A DNA stretch of 64,000 nucleotides from Deltaproteobacteria bacterium (GTDB lineage Bacteria; Desulfobacterota; Syntrophia; Syntrophales; UBA2192): positions 1 to 64,000 of the forward strand of contig JAAYEC010000022.1 of assembly GCA_012728915.1 (NCBI GenBank). Reading direction: 5' to 3'. Positions 2,677-13,172 of the stretch are shown here, in pieces. Within the stretch, counting starts at the first letter, position 1, and every line of letters starts with the position of its first letter. Below the pieces are notes generated by a model. That model was given only the letters and a program-made list of their open reading frames with translations, was not told where the DNA came from and ran no database searches. The position numbers and the translations under genes were made by a program.

Positions 2677-3075
2677 CCTTGCGGGAAGTGCCGGCGTATC
2701 GCTTGCGAGGGCTCGATTTCGGCCGGCCAGTTATGATTGATATTCAACTAACATGCCAGAAAACAAGGCAAAAGGCACCAGGCATAAGGCTGAAGGCAAT
2801 ATCGTGCAAAAAATCGGGCTATTCTCCCATGGCCCATATCGGGAGCAACCCCGGGAAGGGGAGCTTTTTGATCTTGCGCCCAGCCCCGAAAGAACGCCTG
2901 GGCAATGGGAGATCTCCCCGTTATCCCCGTCGTGTCGGCGCTCTGGATGTCCCTATAATGGGGAATGCAAAAAATCAAGGGAAAGCTTCGATATAAAAAG
3001 CTTTCTTCTCTCGCGATTATCGTCTAATAAGGACGTGGGTTGCCCGTTTTTGTCACGGAAGATGCATAAAATGAT
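2677..3075. other. Divergent intergenic region with an inverted repeat
   Basis: This 399-bp region lies between the minus-strand GT2 start and the plus-strand sigma-factor operon. It holds an inverted repeat, GAAAGCTT at 2981-2988 and AAGCTTTC at 2998-3005, separated by nine AT-rich bases. Short open frames cross it but none has convincing coding character. I could not pick a clear -35/-10 pair; promoters for both directions are expected here. Confidence 0.4.
2981..3005. promoter_or_regulatory. 8-bp inverted repeat upstream of the ECF sigma operon
   Basis: The arms GAAAGCTT and AAGCTTTC are perfect complements across a 9-base AT-rich spacer, about 71 bp before the first possible start of the sigma gene. 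It could be an operator or a weak terminator. No function is shown by sequence alone. Confidence 0.3.
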
Positions 3076-3675
3076 GTGACTTTTCCCCGGCCCGATTTGT
3101 ATATGAAGCAGATCGACGAAGGCGAGATCATCGGGCGGGTCCTGGCGGGGGACCGCGAGGCCTTTGCCCTTCTTGTCGATGCGTATAAAGGACCGGTTTT
3201 TCGCTTGGCCTTCCGGATGACGGTAAGCTCCCGGGATGCCGATGACCTGAGCCAGGAGATCTTTCTACGGGCCTTTCAGCATCTGGGACGGTTCAGGCAG
3301 GGGGAGCGGTTTTTCCCCTGGCTCTACACGGTGGCCCTCAACGTGATCCGCAACCACCTCCGGAAGGGGAAGGCCGTGCCGGAGGGCGAATCCGCGAGGG
3401 GCGTGCCGGAAGTGGAAGATCCCCGCGACGATCCGGCCGACGCGGTCGTCAGCCGGGAGCGCAGCCGCCGGATCCGGGGCTACCTGATGAGACTTCCGAC
3501 GGCGGTCCGGGAGATCTTGGTGCTGCGGTTCTACGAGGGGATGAGTTTCGAGGACGTTGCGTCGCTGACGGGCGATTCCCTGGGCAGCGTCAAGATGAAG
3601 GCCTACCGGGGCCTGGAGAAGATCCGGGGCATGATGGAGGCGGACGGTTTCGTCGATGACGAAAGGCGGAGTTGA
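3076..3675 (+). CDS. ECF-type RNA polymerase sigma factor (sigma-70 family, RpoE-like)
   Basis: The 199-residue protein has region 2 (AFALLVDAYKGPVFRLAFRM, then DADDLSQEIFLRAFQHL, with FFPWLYTVALNVIRN) and region 4 (LPTAVREILVLRFYEGMSF, then the helix-turn-helix DVASLTGDSLGSVKMKAYRG), with no region 3: the ECF layout. The coordinates use a GTG at 3076; an ATG at 3103 giving MKQIDEGE is equally possible, and neither has a strong Shine-Dalgarno. Its end overlaps the next gene, a small membrane protein probably acting as anti-sigma, and three pseudopilin-type genes follow without gaps. It therefore probably controls this surface-structure operon, perhaps including itself. Confidence 0.88.
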   Translation: MTFPRPDLYMKQIDEGEIIGRVLAGDREAFALLVDAYKGPVFRLAFRMTVSSRDADDLSQEIFLRAFQHLGRFRQGERFFPWLYTVALNVIRNHLRKGKAVPEGESARGVPEVEDPRDDPADAVVSRERSRRIRGYLMRLPTAVREILVLRFYEGMSFEDVASLTGDSLGSVKMKAYRGLEKIRGMMEADGFVDDERRS

Positions 3676-4357
3676 GAGGGTAAGAAACTTGGACCCTGAT
3701 CGAAGTATAGAAAAAATAATCCGGGAGATTGACGGGCAGAGACCTTTTCCGGAGGCCGGCGAGCCGGACTCCCGCTGGAAGGAACTCGACGGGATCGCCC
3801 GGATGATGCGCGAGGAGGCCACCCCCGAGCCGCCGGCCGACCTGGGGGTGCGCGTCATGGCGCGCATCCGGTCCTTCCGGCCTTCACCGTGGCGCGTGCT
3901 GGGCGAGGCCCTCGTGAGGCCCCGCGCGGTCAGCTTCGATCCGATCCGGGCACTGCGCGCCCCCGTGTCCGGGCAGGAGTGCTCTTTTTATTTCTTCATG
4001 GTCGGCATCTTTTATGCCGTCCTGGGCGTGATCCTGCTGGCCGGGCTGCACGGGTTGGGATCGTTTCCCGCTGCGCCGGGCTGGGTCCGCTGGCAGCCGC
4101 CGATCGCGCTTGCCACGGCCGGGTGCATGGCGGCCATCGGGCTTTACCTGCTGAAGGACGGAAAGATGGCCCTTCGCGCAGCGCGGGTCGGGGCTGTGGT
4201 CTATCTCGGGTTCGCCCTGCTCAACGGGGTCTTCGTGCCCCTGGAGTGGAGCGTCCCCCTCTCGGCTTACGTGTCGCTGGTCTCGGCTCTCGTCGGGCTG
4301 CCGACGGGCTTTTTCCTGGTTCGCACCTTGCAAAACTGCGGGAAGCGGTATGCGTAG
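3656..4357 (+). CDS. Four-helix membrane protein, putative anti-sigma factor
   Basis: The 233-residue protein overlaps the ECF sigma gene by 20 bp, the usual arrangement for anti-sigma factors. A soluble N-terminal part of about 105 residues contains PEPPADLGVRVMARIRSF, a segment resembling the region of many anti-sigmas just before the membrane part. Four hydrophobic segments follow (near 115-137, 149-167, 178-198 and 203-225). No HxxxCxxC zinc motif is visible, so it is not a classic ZAS-domain anti-sigma. A TTG 11 codons in, preceded by AGAGGG, is an alternative start. The function is inferred from position and layout. Confidence 0.6.
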   Translation: MTKGGVERVRNLDPDRSIEKIIREIDGQRPFPEAGEPDSRWKELDGIARMMREEATPEPPADLGVRVMARIRSFRPSPWRVLGEALVRPRAVSFDPIRALRAPVSGQECSFYFFMVGIFYAVLGVILLAGLHGLGSFPAAPGWVRWQPPIALATAGCMAAIGLYLLKDGKMALRAARVGAVVYLGFALLNGVFVPLEWSVPLSAYVSLVSALVGLPTGFFLVRTLQNCGKRYA

Positions 4358-4883
4358 AACGGCTCGGAAAGGACAGCTCGGCAGGCAGGGCGGGTTCACC
4401 CTGTTCGAGATCATCATGGTGCTCCTGATCCTGGGGGTCATTTTTTATGTTGCCACCAGCCGTATCTTCACGCAGGACTCGGTAACCTCGGCCTCCGAGA
4501 TGGATCAGGTCAAGAACCATCTCCGGTATGCACAGGCTCGTGCCATGAACACAGATAGAAACTGGGGGATCGTTTTTGAACTTCCTTCAAAGTACTGGCT
4601 TTACTATGAGGAGAGTGAAGGAGGGAATAAGGTTTCAGTTCGGCTTCCGGGGGATGATACCTCGACAGACAACAGGATGACACTGAAATCGCTTACTATG
4701 ACTTCGATCACCAATTCGCTTTATTCAAATGAGGTAAGATTCTTCTGCGGCTCATCTAAATCTACTTGGACTTGGTCTGGCAAGTTTGGTAGTCCAAGCT
4801 CTTCTAATGATACGATCGATATAAATATAAATACGTCAGCTGGCACGATAATAATTAAGCCAAACACAGGATTTATTCCCTGA
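4350..4883 (+). CDS. Pseudopilin / GspH-like prepilin with N-terminal methylation motif
   Basis: The 177-residue protein overlaps the preceding gene by 8 bp. The leader ends in GG and is followed by FTLFE, the prepilin peptidase site with Glu at +5 (E20), then a hydrophobic helix IIMVLLILGVIFYVA. After PilD-type cleavage it would sit in the inner membrane as a minor pilin of a type IV pilus or type II secretion pseudopilus. The C-terminal domain is rich in Ser, Asn and Thr, and its coding sequence (about 4540-4880) is clearly more AT-rich than the flanks, suggesting rapid evolution or transfer. The exact subclass is uncertain. Confidence 0.8.
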   Translation: MRRTARKGQLGRQGGFTLFEIIMVLLILGVIFYVATSRIFTQDSVTSASEMDQVKNHLRYAQARAMNTDRNWGIVFELPSKYWLYYEESEGGNKVSVRLPGDDTSTDNRMTLKSLTMTSITNSLYSNEVRFFCGSSKSTWTWSGKFGSPSSSNDTIDININTSAGTIIIKPNTGFIP

Positions 4884-4901
4884 TTTTCAAGGTGACCCAG
4901 C

Positions 4902-5372
4902 ATGATTAGCAAAAAAGAAAGAAGGTTTGGGCAATCTGGCTTCACCCTGCTCGAGGTGATCGTCACGATTGTGATCGCGGCCATCATGGGGGTCTTCTTC
5001 GCACAGCTCGTATACACCGGGGTGATCCACAGCGCTGACCCCGTCAGGCTGTTGCAGAATATGTATGGCGAGGATGCAAGCGCTCCCGGCGTGACGAGCA
5101 TCATGGAGAACATGACGGTCATTTACAAGAGGCTTGCCGCCACGGAGTCGAACTTTCTGGAAACCTTCAAGGGTTACGTAGATAACGGCAACAAGACGAC
5201 AGGCAGGACTGGTGACAGTCCTTACATTGGACCCTATCAGATAATTCACAACGATTACATAGTATTCGACGGATCACGCCGGGAACAGTCGGCAGGCCCG
5301 ACGGAGCGGAACATTCTCAAGGTTACCATTCGCGCAGGCGGCCAAACGGCGACAGCGCTCTTTACGCGTTAG
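4902..5372 (+). CDS. Pseudopilin (type IV pilin-like N-terminus)
   Basis: The 156-residue protein has a 13-residue basic leader ending in Gly, then FTLLE with Glu18 at +5 and a hydrophobic helix VIVTIVIAAIMGVFFAQLV. This is a prepilin peptidase substrate. The rest is a small globular domain with no cysteine pair. It begins 18 bp after the previous pseudopilin and is followed 20 bp later by the giant pilin-like fusion, so the three are probably co-transcribed minor pilins of one pseudopilus. Confidence 0.8.
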   Translation: MISKKERRFGQSGFTLLEVIVTIVIAAIMGVFFAQLVYTGVIHSADPVRLLQNMYGEDASAPGVTSIMENMTVIYKRLAATESNFLETFKGYVDNGNKTTGRTGDSPYIGPYQIIHNDYIVFDGSRREQSAGPTERNILKVTIRAGGQTATALFTR

Positions 5373-5392
5373 CGGAGAAGGGGAACAGACAA

Positions 5393-8300
5393 ATGAGAAA
5401 CAAGACGGGCTTTACCCTCATCGAGATCATGGTTTCGCTCGTCCTCGTGGGCATAATTGCATCGATTGCCGGCACCTCGGTTCTCATGGGCATGAAGGGG
5501 TATGTCACCTCGCGTGAAAACAATGTGCTCACGCAGAAAGCGCAGCTCGCCTTGAATCGGATCCATCGTGAGTTCATTGAACTGTCCGAAGTTCAAGATG
5601 GCAAAGAGAGATGCCTTATTTACCAGGGCCCCTATGGTCGGCGCGCCCTCAAGTGGTTTGAAAACGATAAAACGATACGGCTGTTTACCAACGCCGACGC
5701 CATTTCTTGCGATGCGCTGTCTTCGGGCGATACCCTGGTTGACGGGGTGCAGAGCCTGTCCATTCAATACTTCTCCAACGCGTCTGGCCCGTGGACCACG
5801 GCACAGGACATCCGGAGCCTATGCGCCTTGACTGTCCAAATACGAATGATGCGGCCTGATATGGCAGACGGAATACTTTTCTCGACGACCGTGAGCCCAC
5901 GCAATAATGGCAACGCGGGCGGGGCCGCCATACCGACACCCGACAACAAGCCGCCGGAGTACGCAAGCAAGTACTGCTTTGTCGCGACGGCAGCCTGGGG
6001 AGATGGGCATCACCCCATGGTCGAACTGCTGAGAGAGTTCAGGGACGACGTCCTCCTGAAGGCGGAACCGGGCATTAGCCTCGTTCGATTGTACTACCGG
6101 GTCGGGCCGACACTTGCCGCGGCGATCGAAAACAAGCCTTTGGCCTGCTTGGCCGTACGAGTGATGATGATCCCTCTGGCTGGTGTGGCCCTGCTTGCCC
6201 TGCATAGTCCGCTGCTTATACCGCTCGCCTTGATCCTGTCCTGGTGGATTGCCCGCTCGATTCCCGCGCAGCGAAAAGGAAGATTCCGGTCCCGGCTGTC
6301 TCGACTGACCGGAGAGCGAGGGGCGATCCTGCTGACCCTGATTGCCGTTATGGTTGTTTTTTCGGCCTTGAGCGCTGTGATGATCACCATGTTTGGTTCA
6401 ACGTCCCTTGGTCAAGCAATGGGAAGCAACGTCATGCGGGCTTATTATCTCGCTGAATCGGGGTTTCGATACGCGGCAAGCACCTATATTAATGCAGCCG
6501 ACGAGACAACCCGCGAGAATCTGATGCTGGCCATGCATAACCAGGAATATACACTGGCCGACAACGAAGGAAAGTTCCGGATTTTGGTTTACCCGTATTA
6601 TGCCAGGTTGACTGAACTATCAAATGGAGACGAACTAACAGCCAAGGTTTCCGGGGGCTTTCCTGTCCCGGAGGGCGACTTCGTCTCGGACAGTTGGGTT
6701 AAGGTCCAGAGGCCAGACGGCGTGGTCACATACAATCAAATTTCTCAAGTATCTCCCCAGGAGCCGAACACACTTCGTTTTTGTCGGAGCAACGCCGCAG
6801 GCAGCCCCCTCTGGGACACGGGCTATGAGACCGGGTCTCTCATCACACCGGTCTGTCTCCCTGATCGGAACGTTAACAACCGCAAACTTATTATAAATCA
6901 GGATGGACGCTACGATCTTGCCTATAAGGAGGGTACGGGTGCCCTGGCGTTTCCGGAACGAAACGGGGTTTTTTCGGTCAGGTTCGAGGGGGAACCTACT
7001 CCTCGAATGCTTTCGTACAGGCATAGAAATCGGGACACCCGTCGATTCGAGGGGATCAGCGACACTGGTGGGCGTTCCCTGCCGAACGGTCCGATGGTCG
7101 AACCAGGCAGCAGCGCCCCCTATAAAAATTTTATCGAGCTGGCAAAATTCGTCCGGCTGGAATCCACCGGTATCCTGGGGGCAGGCGCCGCGGAAGTCAG
7201 CCGCAAGATCACCTACGAGATTCCCCTCGGGTATATGACGGCAGCCGCTCCCAAGACGGAGATGAAAGAACAGTTTGGCTCCAGCCTGGCAAACTGGTTC
7301 ACCGGCTCCGAGATAAGTCATATCGGCACGCAAGCAATCGAAGGCGGCGCCTTGAGAGTTACGTCGCCGCAAACGACCAATGTTTCTCCGACATCGTCGT
7401 GTCTGCTATTCCGGGAGAATCAAATTGCTCTCAACTGGGAAAAGGCCTTTTCGTCATCGGGGGCCCAGGAAAACTTCGAAACGGAATGGAAAAGGGCGGG
7501 AAGATATCTAAGTTACGACGTCCAAGCAAAGCTCAAGCTGGATTCCACGAATCAGACTTATGCCGGAGGCCTTTCTTTTCGCCTTGACGAGGCGGGAAAT
7601 AGTCTCGGGCTTACGATCCTGAGCAGTGTCCCGGGCTTTTATACCACCGACGGGTGCGACAAGGACGGGATCCCCAATGGGATGACAACAGTCACTGCTA
7701 TTATCCAGTACAATCCCTATCTCGTTCTCTGGATGAAGGAGGCTGCGCGGACGGAAAAAAGTGTCGTCATTGTTCCGAGCCCACACTTGGACCCTGCATC
7801 GGCGGATCTCAACGACCCGCCCCCGACAGGAACGGGAACGAACGCCATCCTCATCGGCCCTTGCTCATTCTGGGAGACGGGGAACCGGGTTCAATTCACG
7901 AACGTGGAAGGCTCGCTTCCCCAGGGGATTTCATCAAGTGTCGATTATTTTATCCGTGTCGTCACGTACGACAATAAAAAATACCTGTATCTCTTCGATA
8001 CCTACAAACAGGCCATGGGACTGGCGGCGACACGATGGGAGGGCCTACGGGACATGAAGACCGACGGGTCCGGCACCAGCAATATGGTCGCTCAAGATCC
8101 CCTGTGGACGGAACTCCTTCGGAAGAACCTCAACGCGTCTCCCTATAGCAGCGATGTCTATCGAATCCTGAAAACCGAAGGAAACCAGTATATCCACTTC
8201 CGGGAATGGACCACTCTCATGGTACGGATCATCGAGGCGCCGTCCGTTTCCTTTATAAACGGCGGCGGCGCGGGGCTGGAGATCGTTAGCGGTAATGTCG

Positions 8301-9055
8301 TGTACCAGACGCAGGAGGACACCGCCGGCGGAACGGTGACAGCCATCGCGCTGGTGCGAAGCGATCCTGTTTACTGGAATCGCTTTGACCAGCAGCCGAC
8401 GGAGTGGAACTGGGAAGCAGGAACGGCTGCAGGGGTGTTGATGCTTGAAATTCTCAAAGACGGTGAGACCATCCGGCCCTACACGTTTGCCAGCGGGAAG
8501 AAAATCTTCGTTGGGAATCCCCCATCCGGCACTTGGGTGGCCACCGCCGGTATCCCCTCGACCGTTACCGACGAGGGCGTCACCATGCGCAACCGGGACA
8601 ACTGGATTCAGGTGTTCGTAGGCGATAAGGACGGTCCGGCCAATCCCAACGACAACCCCCTTGACATCAATAGAGGCCTCTCACCGCGAGATCAGATATT
8701 CTGGTCACCGGATCGTGTTGGCTATCCCGGGATCACGACGACAAGCAATGACCGGTTCAGTCTGGTTAAAATGGGTGATAGCAGGAATTTATGCTTCGCC
8801 AGAAGGTTTCTCTCTAGGCAGAACGCGGGAGATAGGGGCGATTTCATCCGCTTGGGGAAACCGCTATATGACGGTAGCGCTTTCTTCAGCACACCTGCCT
8901 CGGGATCGGATTTTTCTCGGAGCCGCCCCGAGGTTGGGCTCCATTCGTATGGCCCTGCGGACTCCATGACGAATTTTTACTTCGATGATTTCGCCGTCCG
9001 ATTCGGCCCGGTCAGTGGCGTGAGAGCCGGATTCCTGATGCCGGTTCAGCGTTAA
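5393..9055 (+). CDS. Giant fusion: PilW-like pseudopilin + CFI-box module + PilX-like protein with long surface domain
   Basis: One uninterrupted frame of 1220 residues joins three modules. Residues 1-190 are a prepilin (leader ends in G6, then FTLIE with Glu at +5, and a hydrophobic helix). Near 193-300 lies a CFI-box-like segment: YCFVATAAWGD, then VELLREFRDDVLL, LVRLYYRVGPTLAAAIE and a hydrophobic stretch; such boxes normally end a protein. From about 308 the sequence restarts as a PilX-like protein: ERGAILLTLIAVMVV, then MRAYYLAESGFRYAASTY. A further ~850 residues end in FYFDDFAVRFG, suggestive of beta-rich ligand-binding or adhesin folds. PilW and PilX are usually separate genes, so a lost stop between neighbours is the simplest origin. 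No start codon is visible at the PilX junction. Confidence 0.78.
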   Translation: MRNKTGFTLIEIMVSLVLVGIIASIAGTSVLMGMKGYVTSRENNVLTQKAQLALNRIHREFIELSEVQDGKERCLIYQGPYGRRALKWFENDKTIRLFTNADAISCDALSSGDTLVDGVQSLSIQYFSNASGPWTTAQDIRSLCALTVQIRMMRPDMADGILFSTTVSPRNNGNAGGAAIPTPDNKPPEYASKYCFVATAAWGDGHHPMVELLREFRDDVLLKAEPGISLVRLYYRVGPTLAAAIENKPLACLAVRVMMIPLAGVALLALHSPLLIPLALILSWWIARSIPAQRKGRFRSRLSRLTGERGAILLTLIAVMVVFSALSAVMITMFGSTSLGQAMGSNVMRAYYLAESGFRYAASTYINAADETTRENLMLAMHNQEYTLADNEGKFRILVYPYYARLTELSNGDELTAKVSGGFPVPEGDFVSDSWVKVQRPDGVVTYNQISQVSPQEPNTLRFCRSNAAGSPLWDTGYETGSLITPVCLPDRNVNNRKLIINQDGRYDLAYKEGTGALAFPERNGVFSVRFEGEPTPRMLSYRHRNRDTRRFEGISDTGGRSLPNGPMVEPGSSAPYKNFIELAKFVRLESTGILGAGAAEVSRKITYEIPLGYMTAAAPKTEMKEQFGSSLANWFTGSEISHIGTQAIEGGALRVTSPQTTNVSPTSSCLLFRENQIALNWEKAFSSSGAQENFETEWKRAGRYLSYDVQAKLKLDSTNQTYAGGLSFRLDEAGNSLGLTILSSVPGFYTTDGCDKDGIPNGMTTVTAIIQYNPYLVLWMKEAARTEKSVVIVPSPHLDPASADLNDPPPTGTGTNAILIGPCSFWETGNRVQFTNVEGSLPQGISSSVDYFIRVVTYDNKKYLYLFDTYKQAMGLAATRWEGLRDMKTDGSGTSNMVAQDPLWTELLRKNLNASPYSSDVYRILKTEGNQYIHFREWTTLMVRIIEAPSVSFINGGGAGLEIVSGNVVYQTQEDTAGGTVTAIALVRSDPVYWNRFDQQPTEWNWEAGTAAGVLMLEILKDGETIRPYTFASGKKIFVGNPPSGTWVATAGIPSTVTDEGVTMRNRDNWIQVFVGDKDGPANPNDNPLDINRGLSPRDQIFWSPDRVGYPGITTTSNDRFSLVKMGDSRNLCFARRFLSRQNAGDRGDFIRLGKPLYDGSAFFSTPASGSDFSRSRPEVGLHSYGPADSMTNFYFDDFAVRFGPVSGVRAGFLMPVQR

Positions 9056-9072: not shown

Positions 9073-9110
9073 GCAACAGAAAACCCGGCCCCGGCCGGGT
9101 TTTCTGTTGC
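9073..9110. terminator. Bidirectional hairpin terminator after the pilin operon
   Basis: A perfect 18-bp inverted repeat (left arm 9073-9090, right arm 9093-9110) has a GC-rich core, GGCC either side of CC, flanked by AAAA and TTTT runs. It ends the plus-strand pilin operon at 9055 and could also stop transcription of the minus-strand ATPase gene that ends at 9237. Confidence 0.85.
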
Positions 9111-9236: not shown

Positions 9237-10664
9237 CTATGCCTTGGGCCGCCCGAAGTTGGATATCTGCGCAATCAGCTCGTCGATGGAGGCCGTCTCG
9301 TCGATGATCAGATGGGAGCCTCCCTTTTCCGCATCGTCGATGGACTGGCTGTAAAGATGGTCGAAAGCGCCGTCCCGCGACAGGGACGAGATGGCCCTCT
9401 CCCCGTTGCCGCCGCCCGGCGGGGTTGACTGGCCCCGCCCGCGGCTTGCCTCGGGACCGATGCCGTTGCGCAGATCCTGCCCCCCGCCGGTCATCCCCGC
9501 GCTGAAGTCCAGGTATCCCTGCGAGCCATACGCTCCGCCGCGGGCCTGTTCAGGCTTTCGGGGCGAGGCGACGGGGCGGGGCCCCGCGGGCTCCCCTTCG
9601 ACCAGCGGCGAGTGGTACACCTCTTCCTGGGAGGATTCCGCCGAGGGCTTGAAGATGTCCTGGGGGGATGCGAAGGAGCCGACCTTTGCCAGATACTCCC
9701 GGGCGTACCGCTCGGTCGTGAACATGCCGTCGTTCTTGCCCATCTGGATGGCGCTCTCGATCTGGGGGAACTTGTTTTCCCGGAGGATTCCCTTGACGGA
9801 CTGGTTTCCGCGCAGGATGGACAGCACCGGCACGCGGAACCCGACATCCTCCCTGATGACAAGATGCTGGACCACGAGCCACTGCAGCGTCGAGGCGACC
9901 TGGTGACGGATTTCCTCCTGGGCCTCCAGGGGGAAGGAGTTGCAGAGCCGGTACAGGGCGTCTTCCGCGTGGGTGGCGTGGAGCGTGGCGATGACGAGGT
10001 GTCCCGATTCGGCGGCGTTGAGGGTGAGCCGCATGACTTCCGGCTCTCTCAACTCCCCCACGACGATCACGTCGGGGTCCTCGCGCAGCACGTCGACGAG
10101 GCCCTGCTCGAAGGACGGCATGTGGGCGCCCAGCTCCCGCTGCTCGATGAAAGACTTCCTGGAGACGTAGCGGTACTCGACGGGGTCTTCCAGGGTCACG
10201 ATGTGGGCGGCCCGGGTGCGGTTGATCTCGTCGACAATTGCGGCGATCGTCGTCGACTTGCCGGAGCCGGTGGCGCCGCAGATGAGCACGAGACCGGCAC
10301 GCAGCTCCGCGATCTGTTTCAGGGAGGGGTGCAGATTGAGCTTTTCGACGGTCGGGACCGTTCCGGGGAGAAGCCGGATGGCAATGCTGAGCCCCCGTGT
10401 CGTGTTGAAGATGTTGACCCGGATCCGGATGTTGCGGATGGTCATGGCCATGTCAACGGACCATCGGCTCTTCAGCGTCTGGAGCTGCCTGACCGTGAGA
10501 ATTTTCTTTACGAGCCCGTCGATCTCTCCGTGGGTCCAGCGGCCCGAGGTGTCGAACTGAATCTGGCCGTTCCTGCGATAGACGACCGGATGCCCCCCGG
10601 TGATATGCACATCGGAACAGCCTTCCTGGACGGCCGTCACAATGACCTTGCTGAACTTCGTCAT
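9237..10664 (-). CDS. PilT/PilU-like twitching ATPase with long C-terminal extension (paralog 1)
   Basis: The 475-residue secretion-type ATPase has an N-terminal domain containing SDVHITGGHPVVYRRNGQI, Walker A GATGSGKST near 131-139, Asp box LEDPVEYRY, Walker B region DPDVIVVGELREPE and the His box GHLVIATLHAT. In the PilT family such hexamers power pilus retraction at the inner membrane. The canonical C-terminal AIRNLIRE-type motif is altered (VKGILRENKFPQIESAIQMG). A ~130-residue tail of low complexity follows, with two short motifs (VYHSPLVEG, and IDELIAQI near the end) shared with the paralog at 11934-13172. The gene lies convergent to the pseudopilin operon, beyond a terminator, and probably serves it. 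Confidence 0.88.
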   Translation of the reverse strand: MTKFSKVIVTAVQEGCSDVHITGGHPVVYRRNGQIQFDTSGRWTHGEIDGLVKKILTVRQLQTLKSRWSVDMAMTIRNIRIRVNIFNTTRGLSIAIRLLPGTVPTVEKLNLHPSLKQIAELRAGLVLICGATGSGKSTTIAAIVDEINRTRAAHIVTLEDPVEYRYVSRKSFIEQRELGAHMPSFEQGLVDVLREDPDVIVVGELREPEVMRLTLNAAESGHLVIATLHATHAEDALYRLCNSFPLEAQEEIRHQVASTLQWLVVQHLVIREDVGFRVPVLSILRGNQSVKGILRENKFPQIESAIQMGKNDGMFTTERYAREYLAKVGSFASPQDIFKPSAESSQEEVYHSPLVEGEPAGPRPVASPRKPEQARGGAYGSQGYLDFSAGMTGGGQDLRNGIGPEASRGRGQSTPPGGGNGERAISSLSRDGAFDHLYSQSIDDAEKGGSHLIIDETASIDELIAQISNFGRPKA

Positions 10665-11216
10665 CCTTTCTTGTCCCCCCCGGATCCGGCCGGAATCAGC
10701 GATTTGGAATCCGCTGGAAGGTATTCATCTTGAAAAGGATCAACAGCACATGGGCCCGGTGGAGGAATAGTTAGCACGAAGCATGCCATAAGAGCCGGGG
10801 AGCTATAATATTAAATCCATGAAAATCGGTTACTTGCGTGCTTTGTTGCGCGGAGCAATGCCGGGCAGATCGTCAAAAAATCATCACCCCACTGTACAAA
10901 CGCAACGAATGCATCAAATATTGTAGATTAATTCGTTTCGCTGTCTTTTCCCTTGACTTGTCGATTTGTTGCCGTTAATGGTCGAATTGGATCGTCCACA
11001 GGCGGTTCTCCGCTCTATCCGTTCCGGCTGCTTTCTCGTGATGTGAGCCGCCCCGCTGAATCTCGTCGGTGCGGTAAACCGTTCCTTGCGTCGTCGTCAG
11101 CCATCGGGAGCTTTGCAGCGGACTCTCCGGTAATCCGGATAGGGGCATCCGGGGTTGTTCCGCGAGTCTGCAATGAAGGAATGCGGCCGCGACCGCATTG
11201 CCGTAAGGAGGGGGAT
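10665..11216. other. Divergent intergenic region, no gene seen
   Basis: This 552-bp region separates the minus-strand ATPase from the collagen-like gene. It is AT-rich between about 10770 and 10960. A TATAAT-like hexamer is near 10802, and TTGACT at 10953-10958 is followed 17 bases later by the weak TAATGG. A frame open from 10953 into the collagen gene lacks coding character before 11217. I see no supported gene. Confidence 0.45.
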
Positions 11217-11819
11217 ATGAAAAAAATAGTCATCGCCGTGGTCGCTCTTTGCTTTCTGGCTTCCGTCGTGCCCGCCGGTGCCAGCGAAGGCAAGTTCCTG
11301 CAGTGGTTCATCGAGCAACTCAAAAAGCCCGGTCCCGCCGGCCGTCCCGGGCCTCCCGGTCCTCCGGGCCCGGCAGGCCCCCCGGGACCTCCTGGGCCGC
11401 AGGGACCCGAGGGCCCAGCGGGACCGCAAGGACCGGCAGGCCTGCAAGGACCGGCAGGTCCCCAGGGTCCGGCAGGCAGCGCCGCCGGGATCCAGAGAGT
11501 CCTGTACGGAACCGTGGATGCGGATGGGGAGATTCTGCGCGGGAGCGGATTCAGCGTCGAATCAGCGAGACCAGCAACGTGTTCCCATGGAGGAAGCACG
11601 ATTCCCTGCACGTTCTACATGATACGATTTGACCCGTCTTTTGGGGATGTCCCAGTCTGCACGGCGACGATTTACGGGCCTGAGTCGTTCGCACGACAAA
11701 CCGTAAGCATCGTGATCACAGGCACAAGTGAAAGTCTCTTGGGAGTCGAAACGGGAATCAATACTCCCGGTGCAACCTCAGGAGGATCCGTTTCCTTTTC
11801 GTTCATCTGCGTCCAGTGA
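11217..11819 (+). CDS. Secreted collagen-like protein (Gly-X-Y repeats)
   Basis: The start at 11217 is set by AAGGAGGGGG just upstream and by a clear signal peptide ([23 protein letters not shown]). Mature residues lead into [11 protein letters not shown] and then about 19 consecutive Gly-X-Y triplets rich in Gly-Pro-Ala and Gly-Pro-Pro (about residues 37-93), a collagen triple-helix module. A C-terminal domain of about 105 residues with four cysteines follows and may trimerise or bind a ligand. The product should be exported to the periplasm or cell surface. It lies between two paralogous PilT-like ATPases, so a link to a pilus-like surface structure is plausible but unproven. Bacterial collagen repeats are often length-variable. 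Confidence 0.88.
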
Positions 11820-11933: not shown

Positions 11934-13172
11934 TTATTCCTTGAACTTTCCCGAGTCCCTGATCTGGGCGATCAGCTCGTCGACCGTCGCCTTCTCGTCG
12001 ATCATGAAGTGCTTTTCCGTGCCTTCGTCGGGGTGGAGGAAAATGACCGATTTGTCCTCGGCGGGCGGCCTCTTCGGTCTTGAAGCGGCCGGCTCGGGGT
12101 CGCCCTCGAGCAGGGGCGAGTGGTAGATCACCTCGCGGGACATCTCCTCGGAAGGCCTGAAGTTCTCCGCCGGGGGGTAGAAGGAGTCCTTCGTGCCGAG
12201 ATAGTCCTTGAGGTATCTGTCCATGGAGAACATGCCGTCGCTCTTGCCGATCTGGATGGCGCTCTCGATCTGGGGCAGCTTGTTTTCCCGGATCATGCCC
12301 CGGACGGAGTTGGTGCCCCGGAGGATGGAGAGCAGGGGAACCCGGAACCCGAAACGCTCGTGGAAGATGAGCTGCTGAATGACGATCCAGGCGAGCGTCG
12401 AGGCGACCTGGAACCGGATCTCCTCCTGGGACTCCAGGGGGAAAGAATTGAACAGCCGGTACAGGGCGTCCTCTGCGTTCGTGGCGTGCATCGAGGCGAT
12501 TACGAGGTGGCCGGACTCGGCGGCGTTGAGGGTGAGGCGCATGACCTCCGGCTCCCTCAGCTCCCCCACGACGATCACGTCGGGGTCTTCACGGAGGACG
12601 TCCGTGAGCCCCTTCTCGAAGGAGGGCATGTGCGTGCCGAGCTCCCGCTGCTCCACGAAGGACTGTTTGGATGTGAATCGGTACTCGATGGGGTCCTCGA
12701 GGGTGACGATATGGGCGGTGCGATTGCGGTTGATCTCGTCGATGATGGCGGCGATCGTCGTCGATTTGCCCGTGCCCGTGGCGCCGCAGATGAGCACGAG
12801 CCCGGATCGAAGCTCCGCGATCTGCTGCAGAGAGGGGTGAAGGTTCAGGCGCTGGATCGTGGGGATGACCCCCGGCAGCAGGCGAATGGCAAGGCTCAGG
12901 CCGCGCGTCGTGTTGAACACGTTGAGCCTCAGGCGCACGTGCTGGATCGTGACGGCCACATCGACGGACCACTCCCTGCGCAGGAGCTGGATCTGCCGGG
13001 GCGTGAGCAGCTTCCTCACCAGGGCGTCCACCTCGGCATGGGTCCACTTGATGGAGCGGTCCTGCTGAATCTGGCCGTTTTTGCGGTACACCACCGGGTG
13101 CGCACCGGTGATGTGGATGTCCGAGACCCCCTCGCGCACCGCCGCGGCGATGACGCCGGTGAATCTTTTCAT
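11934..13172 (-). CDS. PilT/PilU-like twitching ATPase (paralog 2)
   Basis: The 412-residue protein is a close paralog of the product of 9237-10664 across the whole ATPase core: SDIHITGAHPVVYRKNGQI, Walker A GATGTGKST, LEDPIEYRF, DPDVIVVGELREPE and GHLVIASMHAT. The C-terminal extension is about 60 residues shorter, but keeps VIYHSPLLEG and a final VDELIAQI segment, implying a conserved docking role for both short motifs. It should be a cytoplasmic hexameric motor at the base of a pilus-like machine. The two copies flank the collagen-like gene and probably arose by local duplication. A separate, canonical PilT is at 58544-59617. Confidence 0.88.
   Translation of the reverse strand: MKRFTGVIAAAVREGVSDIHITGAHPVVYRKNGQIQQDRSIKWTHAEVDALVRKLLTPRQIQLLRREWSVDVAVTIQHVRLRLNVFNTTRGLSLAIRLLPGVIPTIQRLNLHPSLQQIAELRSGLVLICGATGTGKSTTIAAIIDEINRNRTAHIVTLEDPIEYRFTSKQSFVEQRELGTHMPSFEKGLTDVLREDPDVIVVGELREPEVMRLTLNAAESGHLVIASMHATNAEDALYRLFNSFPLESQEEIRFQVASTLAWIVIQQLIFHERFGFRVPLLSILRGTNSVRGMIRENKLPQIESAIQIGKSDGMFSMDRYLKDYLGTKDSFYPPAENFRPSEEMSREVIYHSPLLEGDPEPAASRPKRPPAEDKSVIFLHPDEGTEKHFMIDEKATVDELIAQIRDSGKFKE

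Follow-up and report, generated by a model that had tools for sequence, protein, structure and literature searches.

ECF sigma factors are usually tied to stress, metals, or transport. The locus studied here, positions 3076 to 9055 on the plus strand of a 64,000-nucleotide stretch of Deltaproteobacteria DNA (called the window below, at its full length), raises the question of what such a sigma factor does at the head of a row of pilin genes, and whether it controls them. All five open reading frames (ORFs) of the original prediction were present, arranged head to tail with overlaps or gaps of no more than 20 bp (Table 1), and Pfam and NCBIfam matches agreed with the sigma ORF and with the pilin ORFs, including the 1,220-residue pilin/CFI-box/PilX fusion. 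The predicted end of the operon at a terminator was likewise recovered as a G+C-rich inverted repeat with a run of T's, located between the operon and a convergent pilT-like gene. This ATPase gene is the same neighbor in the own genus and in a further relative (G007), and the second pilT-like gene is also a conserved neighbor. Between the two, at 10953-11819, the window encodes a collagen-like protein with Gly-x-Pro repeats and a signal-like segment.

Table 1. Features of the sigma/pilin locus and its neighbors (window coordinates)
Feature	Coordinates	Strand	Remarks
ECF sigma factor	ORF 3076-3675; start reassigned, 3103..3675	+	190 aa from ATG 3103
Anti-sigma-like membrane protein	3656..4357	+	233 aa; 20-bp overlap with sigma gene
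Minor prepilin 1, GspH/FimU/ComGD-like	4350..4883	+	8-bp overlap with membrane protein gene
Minor prepilin 2, GspI/PilV position	4902..5372	+	18-bp gap after prepilin 1
Fusion protein	5393..9055	+	1,220 aa; 20-bp gap after prepilin 2
Predicted ECF-type promoter	3075..3104	+	-35 TGTGACTTTT 3075-3084; -10 TTGTATAT 3097-3104
Terminator-like G+C-rich inverted repeat, then T's	~9080..9105		From sequence; scan match 9087-9101
PilT-like ATPase, convergent neighbor of operon	9237..10664	-	T2SSE 2.4e-40
Second PilT-like ATPase	11934..13172	-	T2SSE 2.4e-40

The sigma ORF matched sigma-70 region 2 (PF04542, 1.6e-17) and region 4 (PF08281, 1.4e-11) in Pfam, and TIGR02937 (sigma70-ECF) above its cut-off in NCBIfam; the protein consists of regions 2 and 4 only. 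In the family alignment, the conserved start corresponded to ATG 3103 (MKQIDEGEI..., against MDQKTEAEI... in relatives), which is probably the start codon. GTG 3076 was rejected as unlikely, because it lies within the -35 box of the promoter described below and because the corresponding frame is broken in one related locus (L092).

Uniqueness of the arrangement to one assembly was ruled out, and its conservation spans many genera. The membrane protein was found in 46 of 149 relatives (order Syntrophales), and about 40 mapped loci mostly showed the order sigma, membrane protein, pilin 1, pilin 2, pilin 3, PilX. When named genomes were scanned with the sigma alignment, the same order was seen in Syntrophaceae and Smithella bins, in a Desulfobulbaceae bin, and in a cultured isolate, Desulfatibacillum alkenivorans DSM 16219 (L121). 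Pilin genes followed directly behind the membrane protein gene on the same strand in all 50 distinct loci whose downstream sequence extended to 600 bp or more, and the sigma gene was directly upstream in 35 of the 44 distinct loci with room upstream. Where it was not adjacent, it was either inverted or downstream at the same locus (L061, L068, and L069) or unlinked, with one copy elsewhere in the genome (G085, G068, G010, G029, G032, and G026). Unlinked copies scored 231 to 270 bits, versus at most 121 bits for other ECF sigma factors. Two loci (L068, G083:C27; L069, G108:C87) carried a back-to-back pair of divergent anti-sigma/pilin modules, the sigma gene being located downstream, and just one module of each pair had the strict promoter motif.

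Of 62 distinct loci, 58 had this bipartite ECF-type motif, TGTGACTWT-N14/15-GTATA, ahead of the module, counting the variant TGTGACTATT. The four negative loci were second copies (L068 and L069) or encoded partial proteins (L081 and L186). Matches in the 1.23 Mb of loci were almost exclusively forward (95 forward versus 1 reversed). Upstream of the sigma start, the own genus, G007, a Desulfococcaceae genome, and Desulfatibacillum shared TGTGAC(T/C)TT, followed at fixed spacing by TTGTAT or GTAAAT. In the host genome (2.79 Mb), the motif occurred at a single site (3075-3103), which overlaps the sigma gene's start; searching by strict patterns, we found no second site even with one mismatch allowed. 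Across the 149 genomes, sigma and anti-sigma occurred together in 41 (sigma only in 2, anti-sigma only in 5, neither in 101), sigma and motif in 41 (2, 5, and 101, respectively), and anti-sigma and motif in 43 (3, 3, and 100); Fisher tests on these counts ignore shared ancestry, which inflates their p-values. Sigma factor, membrane protein, and promoter co-occurred almost one to one, even where the sigma gene was unlinked.

The motif might nevertheless belong to another regulator as its operator or promoter, for instance one of the CRP/FNR type, with the ECF sigma factor controlling something else: TGTGA is a known CRP/FNR half-site, and four draft genomes (G028, G073, G118, and G125) had the motif without a detected sigma gene. 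We regard this as quite improbable, as TGTGA had no palindromic partner and stood at a fixed 14/15-bp spacing from a -10-like GTATA, the presence of the motif tracked the sigma gene even when unlinked, and there was usually one site per genome, unlike what is expected of a global regulator. Two genomes had three to four motif copies upstream of the anti-sigma operon (L054 in G068:C56, and G032:C36:14277-18624), and the sigma gene was unlinked in both. In L054, toxin-antitoxin-like genes (PIN, AbrB, and the like) stood between the copies. We considered the array in G068 as a set of extra pilin targets and rejected this, since toxin-antitoxin-like genes lie between the promoter copies instead.

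How the sigma gene itself is transcribed probably differs between groups. The start codon ATG 3103 and the -10 box overlap in the own genus, and a transcript begun at this promoter would lack that codon; the sigma protein is therefore probably made from a separate promoter further upstream, and simple autoregulation does not fit, because the sigma start overlaps the promoter. A sigma70 promoter scan of the window gave no match on the plus strand and thus did not locate the basal sigma promoter of the own genus. Smithella-type loci have the motif between the sigma and membrane protein genes, and their sigma gene has a separate sigma70-like box, ACTTGATATT; in these loci, sigma is therefore probably constitutive, with regulation limited to anti-sigma and pilins. 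Because the promoter is 3' of the sigma gene in many relatives, sigma often falls outside the regulated operon. The sigma-type promoter ties the sigma/anti-sigma pair to the pilin operon.

The membrane protein has a short cytoplasmic N terminus with the segment PPADLGVRVMARI and four transmembrane (TM) helices, without a sizeable periplasmic domain. An AF2 model (pLDDT 83) placed the TM helices at residues 106-133, 142-167, 169-197, and 201-232, and N-terminal helices at 14-25, 39-53, 63-73, and 78-87; many relatives have only ~35 to 75 residues N-terminal to the first TM helix. The window protein alone matched no Pfam family above cut-off and an anti-sigma family only at an E value of 0.32, and a PDB fold search returned nothing below an E value of 0.001, only chance helix bundles. 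Given also the shortness of the N-terminal segment, the protein could be a pilus assembly or membrane factor that merely follows the sigma gene. This is improbable in view of the family as a whole: 11 of 40 members matched the NCBIfam antisigma family NF052375 and 8 of 40 matched PRK13920, with best anti-sigma family E values of 9.8e-7 and 3e-8. In addition, when 395 genomes of the phylum were searched with a family profile, its N-terminal part drew weak matches, nearly all of them in proteins encoded directly downstream of an ECF sigma gene. Many of these have an H..C..C zinc-type anti-sigma domain followed by a EPPAWLAQKVMARV-like PPxxLxxxVMARV segment, which aligns with EPPADLGVRVMARI in the window protein. 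The predicted anti-sigma-like character is thus backed by the matches in relatives and by the ECF-linked anti-sigmas that the profile finds. A coevolution study of class I anti-sigma factors assigns the binding of sigma region 2 to the fourth helix (PMC7406223), and the EPPADLGVRVMARI segment may represent this helix. The zinc motif Hx3Cx2C, optional in class I, was absent from the membrane protein alignment, and the anti-sigma segment falls short of the length of a complete class I domain; the same study set domains of <50 residues aside as possible class II (PMC7406223). No kinase family matched the protein when histidine kinase domains were sought as for a PilS-type sensor.

Gene order, co-occurrence, the promoter motif, its single site, and anti-sigma homology together make it likely that the module serves as a dedicated ECF sigma/anti-sigma switch with a single target, the operon for the minor pilins (tip complex) of a type IV pilus (T4P)- or type II secretion system (T2SS)-like filament. 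By inference, the sigma factor would read this promoter, and the four-TM protein would inhibit the sigma factor. Many ECF sigma factors respond to general envelope stress, with pilins conceivably one incidental output here; one promoter site in the genome and pilin genes at every one of the 50 loci make this very improbable. The pilin genes lie downstream of the genome's sole promoter of this type, in line with the proposal that the regulon includes pilins. A boost to general pilin output, by contrast, was not borne out: a pilA pair appears to lie on contig C16, yet no second promoter site was found genome-wide. Pilus assembly or surface contact as the signal likewise found no support. Beside pilA on that contig (G000:C16, L032:1673-3760), as in D. 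alkenivorans (L121:1779-3866), is a gene for a 696-residue multi-TM protein, possibly for pilin glycosylation.

N_methyl motifs were found on all three pilin ORFs (Pfam/NCBIfam). Prepilin 1 resembled ComGD (9.2e-11) and GspH (1.5e-6), both below curated cut-offs; prepilin 2 had an N_methyl match (2.5e-6) and a gene position conserved in relatives. The set reads GspH/FimU-, GspI/PilV-, GspJ/PilW-, and GspK/PilX-like in the conserved H-I-J-K order, where the original prediction had spoken of pseudopilins. The pilins may serve a T2SS-like pseudopilus or another filament rather than a type IV pilus, which would be compatible with the switch. Such a role is suggested by the H-I-J-K order, by the best Foldseek match of the GspJ-like part of the fusion (XcpW, 5.1e-4), and by a separate FimT/PilV/PilY1 set on contig C37 of the own genome. 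We nonetheless consider it rather unlikely. Several relatives place the module behind pilus genes (L112, L113, L114, and L117), which family scans of L117 identified as those for a pilB-type ATPase, pilC, a sigma54 activator, and a pilA-like pilin; two pilT-like genes, the only pilus motor or pilA genes in the window itself, lie beside the module in the own genus; and translated ORFs of the own genome appear to include a separate GspF-K set (C34). A type IV pilus or related filament is therefore tentatively favored over a classical T2SS.

The fusion protein comprises a GspJ/PilW-like pilin (residues 1-180), a stretch with CFI box, TM helix, and basic loop (195-308), a second prepilin-like site (G310↓A), a PilX/GspK-like part, and a long C-terminal extension. 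CFI-box-CTERM matched residues 195-262 (5.4e-20; 71 bits, cut-off 40), placing the box in the middle of the 1,220 residues rather than at the C terminus, as in the aligned fused homologues (20 aligned). Strong CFI-box matches were confined to proteins that unite pilin 3 with PilX, and the box was missing where the two are separate. Nearly all joined proteins showed a cysteine motif, then a TM helix, a basic loop, and G↓(A/S/G/N)-x-L, which is the start sequence of separate PilX proteins; L046 and L112 had degenerate linker forms. AF2 modeled long pilin-type helices at 9-62 and 309-366 with moderate confidence (pLDDT 72 for the fusion). The C-terminal half (620 residues) had no Pfam match and no PDB relative. 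Directly behind its short PilX, L114 encodes a BACON and Ig-like domain protein (L114:10713-12504), possibly a tip adhesin, where the PilX part of the window protein has its long extension. With its CFI box placed mid-protein and flanked by two pilins, the fusion suggests a prepilin polyprotein; the Cys-TM-basic layout, the PilX-like restart, and the parallel with the cleaved MYXO-CTERM make it plausible that this polyprotein would be cut twice. To our knowledge, a mid-protein CFI-box prepilin polyprotein has no earlier description.

We propose that the four-TM protein, through its short N-terminal anti-sigma segment, would tether the sigma factor to the inner membrane. Once released, the sigma factor would bind RNA polymerase and start transcription at TGTGACTTTT-N-TTGTATAT, the genome's single such site, and the mRNA would yield both the anti-sigma, giving negative feedback, and the GspH-, GspI-, GspJ-, and GspK/PilX-like pilins. 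Because the anti-sigma is almost without a periplasmic part, we tentatively guess that its sensing may be intramembrane and directed most likely at the unassembled pool of the minor pilins whose genes are under its control. Taken as a whole, the following reading is possible but doubtful: the multi-TM anti-sigma would read unassembled tip pilins in the membrane and free a one-operon sigma factor, and the GspJ/PilW-CFI box-GspK/PilX polyprotein would be cut at the CFI cysteine and at the second prepilin site, fixing a 1:1 dosage. Many uncultured relatives among sulfate reducers and syntrophs appear to keep a private sigma factor, a membrane-bound inhibitor, and one promoter for one tip-piece operon. 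If pilus tip proteins are under a one-promoter switch of this kind, ECF sigma factors would gain a new output and filament assembly a new mode of control. Its promoter motif offers a directly testable, genome-wide single target, and D. alkenivorans is a cultured carrier.

In the full-text literature, with the numbered ECF classification outside the comparison, we found no class pairing an ECF sigma/anti-sigma with minor pilins or pseudopilins, as the original prediction had supposed. The CFI-box stretch resembles MYXO-CTERM, which is cut by a protease (myxosortase), in its invariant Cys motif, TM helix, and basic cytoplasmic cluster (PMC11980579); the element here differs in lying mid-protein between two pilin modules, and no protease for it was identified. 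Closest in promoter behavior is ECF41, for which the promoter TGTCACA-n16-CGTC and single-target behavior were tested experimentally (PMC3426412). Its TGTCAC(A) -35 is close to TGTGAC here, and it likewise has a 16 ± 1 bp spacer and a single target promoter adjoining the sigma gene; ECF41 differs in carrying a regulatory domain fused to its C terminus, in having a COE enzyme rather than pilins as its target, and in its -10, which is CGTC/TGTT (PMC3426412) versus GTATAT here. With class I anti-sigmas (ASDI; RseA, RskA, ChrR, and RsiW), the membrane protein shares a cytoplasmic N terminus encoded beside an ECF sigma gene (PMC7406223), and its PPxxLxxxVMARI segment has counterparts in the ECF-linked anti-sigmas of zinc type found in the phylum. 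However, the bundle of helices 1 to 3 is apparently reduced here, Hx3Cx2C is missing, and there are four TM helices without a sizeable periplasmic domain. As in Synechocystis, where SigF controls pilA1, an alternative sigma factor would control pilin genes, but SigF belongs to group 3 rather than to the ECF sigma factors and acts on the major pilin (PMC8546353). Finally, PilSR regulates a pilin gene in Pseudomonas, thought to be in answer to the inner-membrane pilin pool (PMC6058289); that system couples a histidine kinase and a response regulator to the major pilin, whereas here a sigma/anti-sigma pair would serve minor pilins, with putative sensing.
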